NCBI RefSeq assembly: GCF_021107415.1
Contig: NZ_JAIOSW010000466.1
Location: forward strand, 1 to 6,223
Length of the DNA stretch: 6,223 bases
From: Desulfobacula sp.
GTDB lineage: Bacteria > Desulfobacterota > Desulfobacteria > Desulfobacterales > Desulfobacteraceae
Reading direction: 5' to 3'
Part shown: positions 553 to 5,436 of the stretch, one piece after another
Numbering within the stretch: position 1 is the first letter of the stretch
How the letters are laid out: each line of letters begins with the position of its first letter
The notes under the pieces: model-generated
Databases searched by the model: none
What the model saw: only the letters and a program-made list of their open reading frames with translations
Told to the model about the DNA's origin: nothing
Position numbers and translations under genes: made by a program

Positions 553-731
553 GTTCAAAACAGATAACAAAATATCATGAATTTTAAATTCAATATTACC
601 CATAAGTCGTTTCAAATCTTAACTTCTTACAAAAAATTAAGATTCAATTATATTCCCTAACATGTTTCATTTAGGACATCTTTCCACAGCATTCTTTATA
701 ATAGCACATCTTACAGAACTGCTTTGGCGGA

Positions 732-866
732 GGCAGGGGTGAAGGTGATGCTTTGGGCGGGTTAAAATCGCTGCGGAGGCACGACGCTGAGAGCAGCGAT
801 TTCACCTCTTCATCGGACATGGATGTCCGATGAAGTTTAGCCCAAAGGATTGCCTTTACTCCTGCC
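732..866 (+). repeat. Nested inverted repeat able to fold as a three-way cloverleaf (REP/MITE-like or structured RNA)
   Basis: Three stems can be read directly. The outer stem pairs 732-758 with 840-866 (27 positions: 22 Watson-Crick, 4 G:U, one G:G mismatch). Inside it, hairpin 1 pairs 765-774 with 793-802 (10 of 10, aaatcgctgc/gcagcgattt) around an 18-base loop. Hairpin 2 pairs 808-819 with 824-835 (12 of 12) around the tetraloop tgga. All four wobbles of the outer stem are G:U on the + strand and would be A:C mismatches on the other strand, which favours a + strand RNA or a + strand single-stranded DNA fold. The block is clearly GC-richer than its surroundings. Base run gctttggcgg at 721-730 is repeated as gctttgggcgg at 750-760, so the right arm has an alternative partner. 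It could be a dispersed palindromic element or a structured RNA; no transposase is adjacent. Confidence 0.7.
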
Positions 867-946
867 GGCACATCTGGAATTCCTTCAATCTACTTGCGAT
901 CATCCTTAAAAAAAATACCTGTCACAAGATTTTTTTTGATTTTCTT

Positions 947-1033: not shown

Positions 1034-1038
1034 GAGGA
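1034..1038 (+). promoter_or_regulatory. Shine-Dalgarno site deciding the MerR-like gene start
   Basis: GAGGA lies 4 bases before the ATG at 1043. Neither of the upstream in-frame start candidates (TTG 995, ATG 1010) has a purine-rich site before it, so 1043 is the preferred start although the spacing is slightly short. Confidence 0.5.
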
Positions 1039-1042
1039 AAAA

Positions 1043-2410
1043 ATGACCCGGGAAAAACTTTTATCTGTTTTAGACATTGCTGAAGAACTGAATACGGGTA
1101 AAGCTACGACAAAATTCATGCTGAAACGCTTTAAAAAATGGCTGCCTTGTGACCTCATTGACGGGCAAGCCTTTTATCATCCTGACAAGACTATTAAATT
1201 ATTATTTATAATACAAGAGAACCTTGACATGGGGATGCTTCCAAGCAAGATTGAAAAAAAACTGGACGTCTTACGCAATGGTAATTCAGATGATTTTTCA
1301 AACCCTTCGAAAAATGAAGACATCCGCTTGAATAATGGCGGATTAAATATTATAGAATCACTTATCACCGACATTGGAGAACAGCAAAAAAGGATTGCCA
1401 AAGCACATGAAAAAAGGGCTGAAGTTGAGGAGAGAAAGGCTTTTGCCATTGAAAAAAGAGCTGAAGCTGAAGAAAAAAAAGCTGATGCCATGAATAATAT
1501 AGCCGCGGCTTTGCAGGAAATGAACCGGCTCAGGACAGGCGACCCTGCTGCCCGACAGATAGCCCACCAGGCTGCATCCATAATTGTTGCGGATGAAACT
1601 ATACAAGAAGACACACCTATTGAGCTTGATGATCTTTCAAGTCTGATTCAAGACCAGGACAATTTTGACAAAACAGATGCCGGCCCGTCTTCTCTGCTTG
1701 AAGAGGACGCTATACTTGAAGAATTTGATAATCTGTCATTGTTATTGGATGAGACAGAAGAATCGGATGATAAACCAGATGATAAACCAGATGATAAAAT
1801 TGATGATCTGTCTGAACTGATTGATGAAGATCCTTTAGCAAGTGCTGAATCTGTACAACTGGATGATTTATCATTACTTCTTGATCCAGCCGCCGCAGCA
1901 GATGATATCCCAAAAGATCGGGAACAGACAGATCAACCTCTCGCTTTGGATGACCTATCCGCCTTAATTGACCAGACTGATAACGAACCGGCAATAGAGC
2001 CGTCTATTGAACTTGATGATCTGTCTCAACTCATAGACGACTCATCAGATTCCGGGCAGAAAGCCCGGGATTTGGATGATCTCTCTTTATTGATAACAGA
2101 CGATTCCCTGCAAATGGATGATTTATCAAAACTGATTGATGATCCAAAAACTTATAAAGAACCTTCTTCCGGAAAAGATGAAATAGAAGACACACCAGCG
2201 ATAAAAATCGATATTTCACCTGAAAAGGATTTGGGAAAATATAAAGCAGCCATCATGAAGATTATTATTGAACTAAAATCGGATGGCTTAAGCGTTGAAG
2301 AGGCAACAGACCGTCTAAACAAGAATAAAATTAAAACTTTGTCCGGAAAACCGGAATGGGGCCAAAAAGCAATTTCGCAAATCTATAAATTCATTGAGTC
2401 TGCAAAATAA
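1043..2410 (+). CDS. MerR-like HTH / coiled-coil / acidic-repeat protein with recombinase-like C-terminal domain
   Basis: This 455-residue protein has four visible parts. Residues about 6-74 match the MerR-type winged helix-turn-helix: a LLSVLDIAEELN-type first helix, a turn, KWLP, then QAFYHPDKTIKLLFIIQ and a helix ending in KIEKKL. Residues about 103-164 are a charged coiled coil containing a 14-residue tandem duplication (123-136 and 137-150). Residues 194-366 are acidic and low-complexity and carry eight copies of x-[LIFM]-D-[DN]-L-S-x-L-[IL]-x. Residues about 399-455 (IIIELKSDGLSVEEATDRLN, then IKTLSGKPEWG and a final helix) resemble the DNA-binding domain downstream of the catalytic core in large serine recombinases, but no recombinase catalytic domain is present. 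A DNA-binding regulator or scaffold with two DNA-contacting ends is the likeliest role; target and effector are unknown. There is no signal peptide or membrane segment. Starts at 995 (TTG) or 1010 (ATG) would add 16 or 11 residues. Confidence 0.8.
   Translation: MTREKLLSVLDIAEELNTGKATTKFMLKRFKKWLPCDLIDGQAFYHPDKTIKLLFIIQENLDMGMLPSKIEKKLDVLRNGNSDDFSNPSKNEDIRLNNGGLNIIESLITDIGEQQKRIAKAHEKRAEVEERKAFAIEKRAEAEEKKADAMNNIAAALQEMNRLRTGDPAARQIAHQAASIIVADETIQEDTPIELDDLSSLIQDQDNFDKTDAGPSSLLEEDAILEEFDNLSLLLDETEESDDKPDDKPDDKIDDLSELIDEDPLASAESVQLDDLSLLLDPAAAADDIPKDREQTDQPLALDDLSALIDQTDNEPAIEPSIELDDLSQLIDDSSDSGQKARDLDDLSLLITDDSLQMDDLSKLIDDPKTYKEPSSGKDEIEDTPAIKIDISPEKDLGKYKAAIMKIIIELKSDGLSVEEATDRLNKNKIKTLSGKPEWGQKAISQIYKFIESAK
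1409..1492 (+). repeat. 42-base tandem duplication encoding two double heptads
   Basis: Units 1409-1450 and 1451-1492 encode EKRAEVEERKAFAI and EKRAEAEEKKADAM. The unit length of 14 residues keeps the heptad register of the coiled coil, so it looks like an in-frame duplication that lengthened the rod. Confidence 0.75.
1622..2140 (+). repeat. Eight-copy peptide repeat x-L-D-D-L-S-x-L-I-D
   Basis: Copies begin at 1622 (ELDDLSSLIQ), 1721 (EFDNLSLLLD), 1796 (KIDDLSELID), 1856 (QLDDLSLLLD), 1943 (ALDDLSALID), 2009 (ELDDLSQLID), 2069 (DLDDLSLLIT) and 2111 (QMDDLSKLID). Start-to-start distances range from 42 to 99 bases, so these are islands in variable acidic linkers and not a strict tandem array. 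Codons for the same residues differ between copies (ctt, ctg, tta, cta, ctc for the second Leu), so the peptide is conserved while the DNA has drifted. Each copy is a short amphipathic acidic-hydrophobic segment typical of a docking motif. Confidence 0.85.
1766..1801 (+). repeat. Short 12-base tandem repeat (DDKP units)
   Basis: Two exact copies of gatgataaacca (1766-1777, 1778-1789) and a third diverged copy (1790-1801) encode DDKP-DDKP-DDKI in an acidic linker. This looks like recent slippage, unlike the older DDLS motifs around it. Confidence 0.7.
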
Positions 2411-2427
2411 TCAAGGTCTATTTTGCA
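2401..2427. terminator. Inverted repeat over both convergent stop codons, possible shared terminator
   Basis: tgcaaaata (2401-2409) pairs with tattttgca (2419-2427) around a 9-base loop, and a T6 run follows on the + strand at 2433-2438 after a cctgcc spacer. The stem is AT-rich and the T run is not adjacent, so termination would be weak. Part of the symmetry has a simple source: both proteins end in Ala-Lys-stop (gca aaa ta-), and the genes face each other. Confidence 0.35.
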
Positions 2428-3356
2428 CCTGCCTTTTTTGCAAAACTTGTATCAACAAATTTTTCAAGATCAATCAAGCTTGTCATAATTTTCATCTCGT
2501 CCATCATGTATTTCTGGATTGTATCAAGATCCTTAATGATGGGGAACAGCTCACCTGTCAGGATACGATCAGGAGGATCAGTGAGCACTTTTTTGATCAC
2601 TTCTTTATCCTGGGAAAGAAAATCGCCACCAATAATTGAAGCCGGTCCGGGTTGCGCATCTATGGCAAGTCCGGATTTGACAAAACTGTCACAGATTTCC
2701 TGAATTGCTTCGGGATGTTTTTCAATAATTTCATTTCGCACGACAAAAACACAGCAGGGATGATTCGGCCATAAATCTTTGGAAAGATAAAATTCTTCTC
2801 CAAACCCCTTGGCGATAACCTGTGATCCAATGGGTTCTGCAACAATAAACCCTCCGATTTCACCCTCTTCGTCATATTCTAACGCTTCAGGCATCTGGAA
2901 GGGCGCAACAACTTCGAGAGTGACATCAATACCCTTTTCGGTTGATCTTCCGGGCTTTAAGCCCTTTTCGGACAGAAGCTTGTGAAACAGCATATTATGA
3001 ACTGACAGTTGATAAGGGATCAGAACAGTTTTTCCGGCAAAATCCTCAATCTTCTCAATATGAGCATTTTTACTTTTAACCAAAATACTTCCTGATTTAT
3101 GGGCAAACAGCAAGAGTTTTATATCAGTACCCGCTTTAAAAAGATCCATAGCCGTCGGAGCAAGTATCAGGGCACCATCAAGGGACTTCACTGAAAGTGC
3201 ATCCGCCACCTCATTCCATCCATTCTTCAGCACAGGGTTAAGAGTACAGTGTTCAAACTTCTCCATACCCTTTTTTAATTTAAGGTCTGTAACGCCAAGA
3301 ATAAGATGATCTGTAATTTTAAGATAACCAATCTTTAATGCAGGTTTTTCCGCCAT
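2418..3356 (-). CDS. NrtA/TauA/SsuA-type solute-binding protein without signal peptide
   Basis: The 312-residue product resembles the periplasmic-binding-protein fold of the nitrate/taurine/alkanesulfonate ABC transporter family. It shows the opening strand IGYLKITDHLILGV (9-22), a GALILAPTAMDLFKAG segment (61-76) at the first lobe, IEDFAGKTVLIP (103-114) before the hinge, a GGFIVAEPIGSQVI stretch (168-181) typical of the second lobe, and WPNHPCCVFVVR (196-207), characteristic of the NrtA-like branch. No hydrophobic signal sequence, lipobox or Tat motif precedes the domain, so the protein should stay in the cytoplasm unless the start is misjudged. The ATG at 3356 is preferred because a strong GGAGGT lies 6 bases before it; the upstream ATG at 3380 would add eight residues and still no signal. 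No permease or ATPase gene is nearby, so a cytosolic ligand sensor or a dedicated binding role is as likely as transport. The ligand cannot be read from the sequence. It follows ispD after 51 bases. Confidence 0.8.
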   Translation of the reverse strand: MAEKPALKIGYLKITDHLILGVTDLKLKKGMEKFEHCTLNPVLKNGWNEVADALSVKSLDGALILAPTAMDLFKAGTDIKLLLFAHKSGSILVKSKNAHIEKIEDFAGKTVLIPYQLSVHNMLFHKLLSEKGLKPGRSTEKGIDVTLEVVAPFQMPEALEYDEEGEIGGFIVAEPIGSQVIAKGFGEEFYLSKDLWPNHPCCVFVVRNEIIEKHPEAIQEICDSFVKSGLAIDAQPGPASIIGGDFLSQDKEVIKKVLTDPPDRILTGELFPIIKDLDTIQKYMMDEMKIMTSLIDLEKFVDTSFAKKAGAK

Positions 3357-3362
3357 TATGGT

Positions 3363-4125: not shown

Positions 4126-5436
4126 TCAGCTCAAATAAGACAGTTCTTTGGGTAAGGGGATTCCTTTACCCATATGGTCTTCTCCATAATTCACACCCGC
4201 AAGAATTTGAAGATCGGTTAATGCCCGCAAGTCACCTTTAAACTGAACGATTTCTACTTCTTCTTTTTTTATTTTTCCGCCGGCCCATTGAATATCCAAA
4301 ACACTTGCAGCATCAAAAATATCATTATTGACAAGCATCCTAACTTCACCGCCATAATGCTGAACAATTTTAGCGACCAAAAGACTTGGACGACTATGGA
4401 ATCCTCGATCCATGGGAATTCCAACTTCTATGGTAGAGGTTTCCATATTTTCATTCAATATTCTGGATGCCAGTTCTTTTCCTGAGGATAAAAATTTCCT
4501 GGCATAAAACAAGCAGTAATTAACCGCCCGATCCAGCAAAACATCCGGATCAATCAAATCGGATAAAGACACACTGACATTTTTGTATACATCCTTAAAT
4601 CCAATGTCATACATATGACGTTCATAAAAATGTAATAATCTGCCCGCTACCTGAAGAAGATGAAATACAACAGAAAAATGGCTTCTAAGCTGCTCAAGCA
4701 TAATATCTTCTGACGATGATTTTGTATTTACCACATATGAATCAAATGAAGACTGGATATTATGAATCAACATTTCATATCTTCTAATAGTAACTTCATT
4801 GATTTGTTCAGGTACAAGCTCATTTAGTTTTTTTAAGTCATAGCGCTCATAAAATGCTAATTGATCGAAATCTTTTACAACTTCCAAAAATTCACTGGCA
4901 ATACGCGTCAGGTTCTCTTTTTGTTGATCTTTGGCATTAAAATCATCTATATTGTGATCCAGCTGTTGTGTAGATGAAATTCCAGGGAAATAACTCAAAT
5001 TATACCCAGTATCCGGTATATTGATTTTCAGACGGCGGGCTTCTTCTATGATCACTGGAGCTGCAAGCCTTATGGATTCCTGTAAAATCTTCAGTGTATC
5101 AAACGCTTCAAGCTTAAATGTCTCATAGCGATTTTGTTCAAAAAAATAAAATTTAAACCGATTAAGAATACGTCTTTGAGAATAGCACGCCAATGCAAGA
5201 TGCCGAATGGTCGCAGACAATTCACGATAAAATACCCATTCTTTATTTTTTTTAGCCCCGTGGAAATCCAAAAAATCTTCAAGGATATGAGAGGTTGTAA
5301 TAAGTTTTGAGTATAATTTTTTTGTATAGATATACTCATCATCTTCAACTCCAACAACAAATAAAATGCATTTTAAATACTCAAAAGAAAAAATATTGGC
5401 TTTTTCTTTATATGAAATATCGCAAGTAAAACTCAT
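4126..5436 (-). CDS. Large protein with C-terminal HPr phosphocarrier domain
   Basis: This 436-residue protein ends in an HPr-like domain (about 333-415). IPMDRGFHSRPS carries H347, the equivalent of the phosphoacceptor His15 of HPr. AASVLD carries S378, matching the regulatory Ser46, and the spacing of 31 residues is the same as in HPr. The first 330 residues are predominantly helical (for example KLEAFDTLKILQESIRL, EEARRLKINIP, LRSHFSVVFHLLQVAGRLLHFYERHM), have no signal peptide or membrane segment, and match no family I can name. HPr normally passes phosphate from enzyme I to sugar permeases or, when Ser-phosphorylated, acts as a regulator; a fused copy in a probable sulfate reducer suggests a regulatory phosphorelay. 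That is inference. The ATG at 5436 is preceded by an in-frame stop two codons upstream (TAA-ATT-ATG), which fixes the start, although no good ribosome site is visible. It follows rnpB by 32 bases and abuts ispD. Confidence 0.8.
   Translation of the reverse strand: MSFTCDISYKEKANIFSFEYLKCILFVVGVEDDEYIYTKKLYSKLITTSHILEDFLDFHGAKKNKEWVFYRELSATIRHLALACYSQRRILNRFKFYFFEQNRYETFKLEAFDTLKILQESIRLAAPVIIEEARRLKINIPDTGYNLSYFPGISSTQQLDHNIDDFNAKDQQKENLTRIASEFLEVVKDFDQLAFYERYDLKKLNELVPEQINEVTIRRYEMLIHNIQSSFDSYVVNTKSSSEDIMLEQLRSHFSVVFHLLQVAGRLLHFYERHMYDIGFKDVYKNVSVSLSDLIDPDVLLDRAVNYCLFYARKFLSSGKELASRILNENMETSTIEVGIPMDRGFHSRPSLLVAKIVQHYGGEVRMLVNNDIFDAASVLDIQWAGGKIKKEEVEIVQFKGDLRALTDLQILAGVNYGEDHMGKGIPLPKELSYLS

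Follow-up and report, generated by a model that had tools for sequence, protein, structure and literature searches.

A gene of Desulfobacula sp. encodes a protein in which a MerR-like head is followed by eight copies of one short motif, raising the question of what kind of protein this is and what the repeated motif may serve. The gene lies in a stretch of 6,223 nucleotides (the window), for which a preliminary description had proposed a scaffold that binds DNA through its head and gathers many copies of one partner through the motifs; the Recombinase-like tail, the companion family, the candidate promoter element and the prkA neighbourhood described below were all absent from that sequence-only reading. 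No named family of Pfam, NCBIfam or PHROGs covers the whole protein, and the titles and opening parts of abstracts in the literature searched hold no description of the family or its motif. Literature matches to the motif strings looked, among the matches listed, unrelated by title. The 455-residue protein belongs to a so far undescribed chromosomal protein family of sulfate-reducing bacteria. Its features and those of the surrounding DNA are collected in Table 1.

Table 1. Features of the array gene and its surroundings in the window
Feature	Position	Strand	Remarks
GC-rich structure between upstream gene and array gene	730-870		Folding z -7.65 (tested on 690-900)
CTTTATTTAT-N5-AAAATTCAATAAA, partly palindromic candidate promoter/operator element	957-984	+
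GAGG, likely ribosome-binding site	1034-1037	+	Read from the sequence; 5 bases ahead of ATG 1043
Coding sequence, 455 aa	1043-2410	+	Reading frame open from TTG 995; ATG 1010 is an alternative start
Predicted MerR-type winged helix-turn-helix head	1043-1279	+
Predicted long helix/coiled coil	1334-1597	+	Model helices 109-177 and 179-196; invariant columns
Array of eight [LFIM]D[DN]LSxL[IL] motifs in disordered acidic stretch	1625-2140	+
Motif copy 1, LDDLSSLIQ	1625-1651	+
Motif copy 2, FDNLSLLLD	1724-1750	+
Tandem repeat of 12 bp	1766-1798		2.8 perfect copies; encodes DDKP within an array linker
Motif copy 3, IDDLSELID	1799-1825	+
Motif copy 4, LDDLSLLLD	1859-1885	+
Motif copy 5, LDDLSALID	1946-1972	+
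Motif copy 6, LDDLSQLID	2012-2038	+
Motif copy 7, LDDLSLLIT	2072-2098	+
Motif copy 8, MDDLSKLID	2114-2140	+
Predicted Recombinase-like three-helix tail	2210-2407	+	PF07508 match and model helices
NMT1/SsuA-like protein gene	2418-3359	-	No obvious signal peptide at the sequence start (by eye)
Gene of a conserved 436-residue protein	4126-5436	-	Between ispD and RNase P RNA; weak HPr-like stretch near the end

Domain Organization of the Protein

Translation was taken to start at position 1043 because relatives start at the corresponding Met. Five parts follow from there: the winged helix of MerR type, a short and variable link, the long helix, which is charged, the disordered acidic array and a small helical tail. 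The head (model residues 21-90) is predicted with a block pLDDT of 89-96. MerR proteins rank highest among its matches in both Foldseek and VIA-align; MarR, MntR and others rank below them in Foldseek. The Pfam profile MerR_1 scored above its cut-off in three relatives (L048, L053 and L058), below it in L054, and was not listed for the window protein. Judged by the model the head is a MerR-type winged helix, and the structure comparison thus supports the MerR-like head that had been proposed. In a viral structure library, the only matches were to phage proteins, at their MerR-type heads (best E 0.0024).

Of the two helices listed for this part in the monomer model, the first, long one is predicted with high confidence, and the densest run of invariant columns of the whole family falls in the long helix (AHEKRAxAEERKAxAIEKRAEAEEKKAxAMNNIA). 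Its coiled-coil type in the model also supports the coiled coil of the preliminary description. In the MerR family, the dimer is formed through an antiparallel coiled coil. Matches of the long helix to designed coiled coils (E 0.017-0.9) were attributed to composition. The C-terminal effector-binding domain of the MerR family is absent from the protein, and the array and the Recombinase-like tail stand in its place; MerR proteins without an effector-binding domain exist, HiNmlR being one. Unlike the head, long helix and tail, which are confidently modelled, the array is disordered in the model (block pLDDT 42-54, residues 201-390), with short helical turns at some motifs, and the stretch carries a net charge of -53 (residues 197-400 of P0001).

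Conservation of the Motif Array

When the 213-residue array stretch was shuffled 20,000 times, the motif appeared in none of 19,958 shuffles and once in each of the other 42, against eight copies in the real sequence, which confirms the eight diverged copies noticed at the outset. The formula x-L-D-D-L-S-x-L-I-D, under which they had been introduced, holds as a repeat but is slightly idealised in its exact form: the first place is taken by L, F, I or M, DN stands for DD in one copy, Leu for Ile in two, and the final D is absent in two. At motif position 4, Leu is encoded by CTG three times, by TTA twice and by CTT, CTA and CTC once each; the motif Ser is encoded by TCA four times, TCT three times and TCC once, and the first Asp is GAT in all eight copies, so the synonymous scatter sits in Leu, Ser and Ile.

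When codons were compared with those of nine relatives, with gaps set aside, identity at the amino-acid level was 84% for the six core positions (non-synonymous change in 60 of 380 aligned codons; 52 gaps) and 31% for the array linkers (616 of 894 codons; 348 gaps). The contrast is somewhat inflated, and hence an upper bound, because the codon alignment was anchored on the motifs. Synonymous differences at unchanged residues were similar in the two (47% of core and 43% of linker codons), bearing out the earlier claim of selection on the peptide motif. The head, coiled coil and tail reached 66%, 77% and 76% identity in the same comparison, and by these sequence measures the motif core is about as constrained as the folded parts. 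This bears on a neutral origin, in which the array would be a functionless low-complexity repeat grown by slippage. Such growth is suggested by tandem expansions, as in L056, where a recent in-frame expansion comprises 11.2 copies of a 45-bp unit (87% match) with the core retained, and by exact 13-mer repeats in L037, L040, L044, L048 and L051. Exactly repeated 13-mers are present in just 9 of 155 proteins, however, so most motif copies look old, and the core is held across the family and across barely alignable linkers despite the synonymous change in its codons; we therefore disfavour a neutral repeat as very improbable.

We collected 786 motif copies from 121 entries (the window protein being included twice) with a pattern in which D and L were fixed and the remaining core places were restricted to D, N or E, to S, A or T, and to hydrophobic residues. 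In these copies the first place is L in 49%, M in 25% and I in 14%, followed by D, then D or N (91 and 9%), L, S (92%), any residue, the second L (99%), I, L or V (70, 18 and 12%) and finally D or E (83%). When the Ser place was left open, Ser accounted for 1043 of 1359 copies (77%), and most of the others had W (74), A (60), T (37), Y (35), N (32) or G (16). Desulfoluna-type members carry DDLW and L056 mostly DDLG. Partner specificity may thus differ by lineage, or the motif may merely be an amphipathic acidic element.

Motif-like sequences were also sought elsewhere. A DNA pattern for DDLSxL(I/L/V)(D/E) with wobble neighbours gave 58 matches in 10 genomes, 35 of them at the array locus (one to seven per genome in nine of the 10) and 23 as scattered singles, compared with nine matches of a reversed control pattern in the 10 genomes. 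G044 had no match to the pattern, and the head-plus-helix profile found no family member there either. Given the excess of single matches, motif-like singles may exist in other proteins. Used as a protein query against 14 genomes, the array recovered its own family gene in six and missed it in eight, and is therefore too insensitive to exclude motifs in other proteins; its one other match was to a 1276-residue frame (27% identity, E 0.36).

Family Membership and Distribution

A protein search yielded 275 relatives from 7996 scored candidates (120 listed), and a second search with a distant profile yielded 57. Counted as D[DNE]LxxL plus a hydrophobic residue, the motif occurs 4-12 times in 190 of 191 distinct head-plus-tail proteins and twice in the remaining one. 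Most of the 191 were found with array-containing queries; the exceptions are 48 distinct head-plus-tail frames obtained by an array-free route, 47 of which carry 5-12 motifs and one carries two (L052 has just two copies). Left out of the 48 are L022 (split), L041 (partly masked), L043 and L059 (cut by a contig end) and L060 (headless). A protein with head and tail that lacked the motif did not occur, either among the 191 or among the 48, and copy number and linkers vary freely while the core is kept. The motif array marks this head-plus-tail family. P0155 has no strict motif, but is a 219-residue piece from a 967-base contig.

Among 33 distinct sequences that bear the tail and lack the head, 27 have no motif, one has a single motif and five have 4-8. 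Four of these five (L022, P0153, P0154 and P0006) look like truncated or split members, and the fifth, L060, is a natural headless form. In L022 (595-2010; G028), the head and the array-plus-tail lie in two separate open frames, and the gene seems to be split or broken. L060 (5952-7133) encodes the helix, four motifs and the tail, with no MerR head in the three upstream forward frames. Headless L060 keeps its array, so the array does not have to work where the head sits.

The array-free head-plus-helix profile matched 60 of 86 family genomes and 102 of 291 class genomes at E 0.001, with at least 66 bits in 56 of the 86 and at least 47 bits in 46 of the 291; the weaker matches are mostly to the helix alone. 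At the phylum level, 32 of 395 genomes matched a full-length profile at E 1e-6, over the full length in the centre genome only, the others being short head-like, helix or tail matches. Named members belong to Desulfobacula, Desulfobacter, Desulfoluna and other Desulfobacterales. Searches of viral contigs, plasmids and phage records gave no relatives.

The Recombinase-like Tail and a Companion Family

The tail matches PF07508 with 22.8 bits (cut-off 21.1) over profile positions 3-48, i.e., 46 of the 102 positions, and its three helices (408-424, 429-438 and 452-465) are modelled with a block pLDDT of 90-96. Among relatives, L048 matches PF07508 below the cut-off, and L053, L054 and L058 are not listed at E 0.01. 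Taken together, model and profile show a Recombinase-like helix-turn-helix fold, which gives the protein a second nucleic-acid-binding-like domain. The tail has no credible sequence relatives among solved structures, and VIA-align is uninformative on its fold, as no row among the matches listed spans it. In PHROGs, the tail of the window protein gives a weak integrase match, and relatives give weak matches of unknown function.

The same tail recurs in a companion family of about 190-400 residues, in which a basic N terminus with a conserved helix (M[ND][DE]FL..LR.G) is followed by a long helix, a motif-less acidic linker and the Recombinase-like tail (loci L099-L111, L113-L117 and L119-L128; some genomes give several matches). 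The tails of the two families are homologous (hhalign 97.4%, E 1.1e-11), and similarity between their long helices was detected by hmmsearch and not by hhalign, whereas the MerR head and the motif array are missing from the companion. Its model shows the long helix, a low-confidence linker and the three-helix tail in the same order as in the window protein, with serine integrases among the weak fold matches (E 1.1 and worse). Besides the tail, the companion members tested match no named Pfam or NCBIfam family. At E 1e-6, the companion is present in 150 of 291 class genomes: in all 47 that hold the window family (the 46 with at least 47 bits plus G197 with its headless member), versus 103 of the 244 others, figures that are uncorrected for kinship. 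Its listed place differs from that of the window-family gene in 45 of the 47, and no place is listed for G003 and G065. Through the window family, the helix-plus-tail module, which these bacteria carry widely, could gain its first known function.

The strong charge of the array invites an intramolecular explanation, in which the acidic stretch and DNA would compete for the head or tail of the same molecule, so that the protein is kept off DNA. The array has a net charge between -22 and -101 in the 124 of 155 proteins in which it was measurable, and the adjoining tail one of -3 to +6 (median +2), as such a screen would suggest. The head and tail are only weakly charged, however, near-invariant Asp and Leu positions would be superfluous for a charge screen, and the companion family has the tail and helix without an array. 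We regard such a screen as quite unlikely.

The Upstream Element

Upstream of the array gene lies a 28-bp element that agrees at 20 positions with its own reverse complement when the two are shifted by one base. When 12 genomes were searched at up to three mismatches, nine contained the element exactly once without mismatch, always upstream of the array gene; five further matches, all with three mismatches, lie away from it. One of these is the sole match in G002, and G027 and G085 gave no match at up to three mismatches. The element lies 86-89 bp before the start in all but one of 11 loci; the exception, at 76 bp, is L012, where the start was taken four codons before the matching Met. The element stays with the gene regardless of the upstream neighbour, be it prkA or another gene as in the window. 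A scan limited to 16-18 bp spacers listed no sigma-70-like site at the element; MerR operators are palindromic and lie in promoters with a 19-20 bp spacer. In the simplest reading, the element would be the operator of the protein itself, presumably bound by its head. The GC-rich structure farther upstream has a copy of 86% identity on another contig in G003 and weaker copies in three other genomes of 10, and looks like a small dispersed hairpin element.

The single site is relevant to the possibility that the array is an acidic activation segment that contacts RNA polymerase or a sigma factor, which would make the protein an activator with a eukaryote-like multicopy region. A repeated acidic and hydrophobic short motif on a MerR head, with the net charge given above, would suit such a role, and the DDLW variants resemble the p53 segment FSDLWKLL. 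MerR activation itself works by DNA reshaping. MerR proteins activate promoters with an over-long spacer, as excerpts of one source describe (PMC8113463), and activation of this type needs no such segment; moreover, one exact element per genome in nine of 12 means that few genes would be served through it. An activation segment of this kind, which we think unlikely, is the docking case with polymerase as the partner and is inseparable by sequence from the rest of that case.

Gene Neighbourhood

In the window, the array gene is preceded by a uracil-DNA-glycosylase-like gene and followed by a convergent gene for an NMT1-like substrate-binding protein. Beyond this lie ispD, the gene of a 436-residue protein, an RNase P RNA of class A and the gene of a zinc-ribbon protein. 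The NMT1/SsuA-like protein is 89-96% identical in nearer relatives, and its gene still adjoins the array gene in some distant ones (68-73% identity). Among 27 loci, we counted the NMT1-like gene in 16, prkA and a DUF444 gene in 15 each, spoVR in 11, ispD in 10 and cheW in five. Each neighbour family was identified on a single member (CheW on two), and several loci end too early for all neighbours. A stand-alone cheW lies close downstream on the same strand in L041, L042, L044, L045 and L046. Since the links differ between lineages, the neighbours name no partner.

The recurrence of prkA, which is divergent in 14 of the 15 loci (the exception, L047, being on a short contig), raises the idea of a phospho-switch acting on the motif Ser, with the kinase/ATPase PrkA, the product of the neighbouring gene, as the possible source of the phosphate. 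The frequent adjacency of prkA, DUF444 and spoVR genes would fit, as would Ser being the commonest residue at its place. Yet L056 has an adjacent prkA and carries Gly for Ser in nine of 11 motifs, DDLW and other non-phosphorylatable forms exist, and prkA does not adjoin the window gene. We disfavour the switch and give it hardly any weight.

Discussion

We lean, with some caution, towards a chromosomal scaffold that binds DNA as an oligomer, controls its own gene and carries a strip for multivalent docking. Its MerR-type head, assembled into a dimer or larger oligomer through the coiled coil, would most likely sit on the 28-bp site and thereby regulate its own gene, with the tail as a possible second contact to DNA. 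The coiled coil and the tail are joined by a flexible, strongly acidic strip, which displays the short amphipathic motif, usually 4-12 times, and could dock many copies of one partner. A docking strip is suggested because the stretch is disordered and selection keeps the motif core while spacing and copy number drift, and a DNA-bound platform appears likely because a MerR head comes with a dedicated element. Architecture and motif conservation agree with the scaffold of the preliminary description; its DNA binding and its gathering of one partner we infer.

It is tempting to extend the scaffold to a hub, a MerR-headed oligomer whose LDDLSxLI motifs recruit many partner copies, RNA polymerase included, to one chromosomal site; we offer this as a tentative and somewhat doubtful proposal. 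If true, bacteria would have an equivalent of multicopy activation segments, one that evolves as motifs are gained and lost and that has spread through a class of sulfate reducers. Docking through repeated short motifs is familiar for DNA-bound regulators of eukaryotes; in bacteria it is, to our knowledge, rare. The family combines a defined motif with natural variation in its copy number (2 to 12) and, at one position, in its residue (S, W, G, A); together with a headless natural variant and a candidate DNA site, these make valency, motif chemistry and DNA targeting separately testable.

Several known systems share parts of this architecture. Large serine recombinases have the PF07508 domain in common with the window protein, which has no listed catalytic domain (no Resolvase domain in an hmmscan up to E 1). 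CsoS2 and EPYC1 are disordered chains that bind one partner through repeated short motifs, by description like the array, but they are not known to bind DNA. The MerR regulators TnrA, GlnR, HiNmlR, CadR and MtaN have a similar head, to which the window protein adds the motif array and a predicted second helix-turn-helix, with no recognisable effector domain. TnrA senses glutamine synthetase by binding it. GlnR senses the same enzyme through binding, according to excerpts of a published account (PMC9249791). RacA of Bacillus shares both the MerR-like head (TM 0.75-0.79 by RacA's length) and a coiled coil. It is an anchor between DNA and a partner protein, with a DivIVA-binding C terminus, many chromosomal sites and no known motif array. 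In contrast to the many sites of RacA, the window family has one exact element, beside its own gene, in nine of the 12 genomes.
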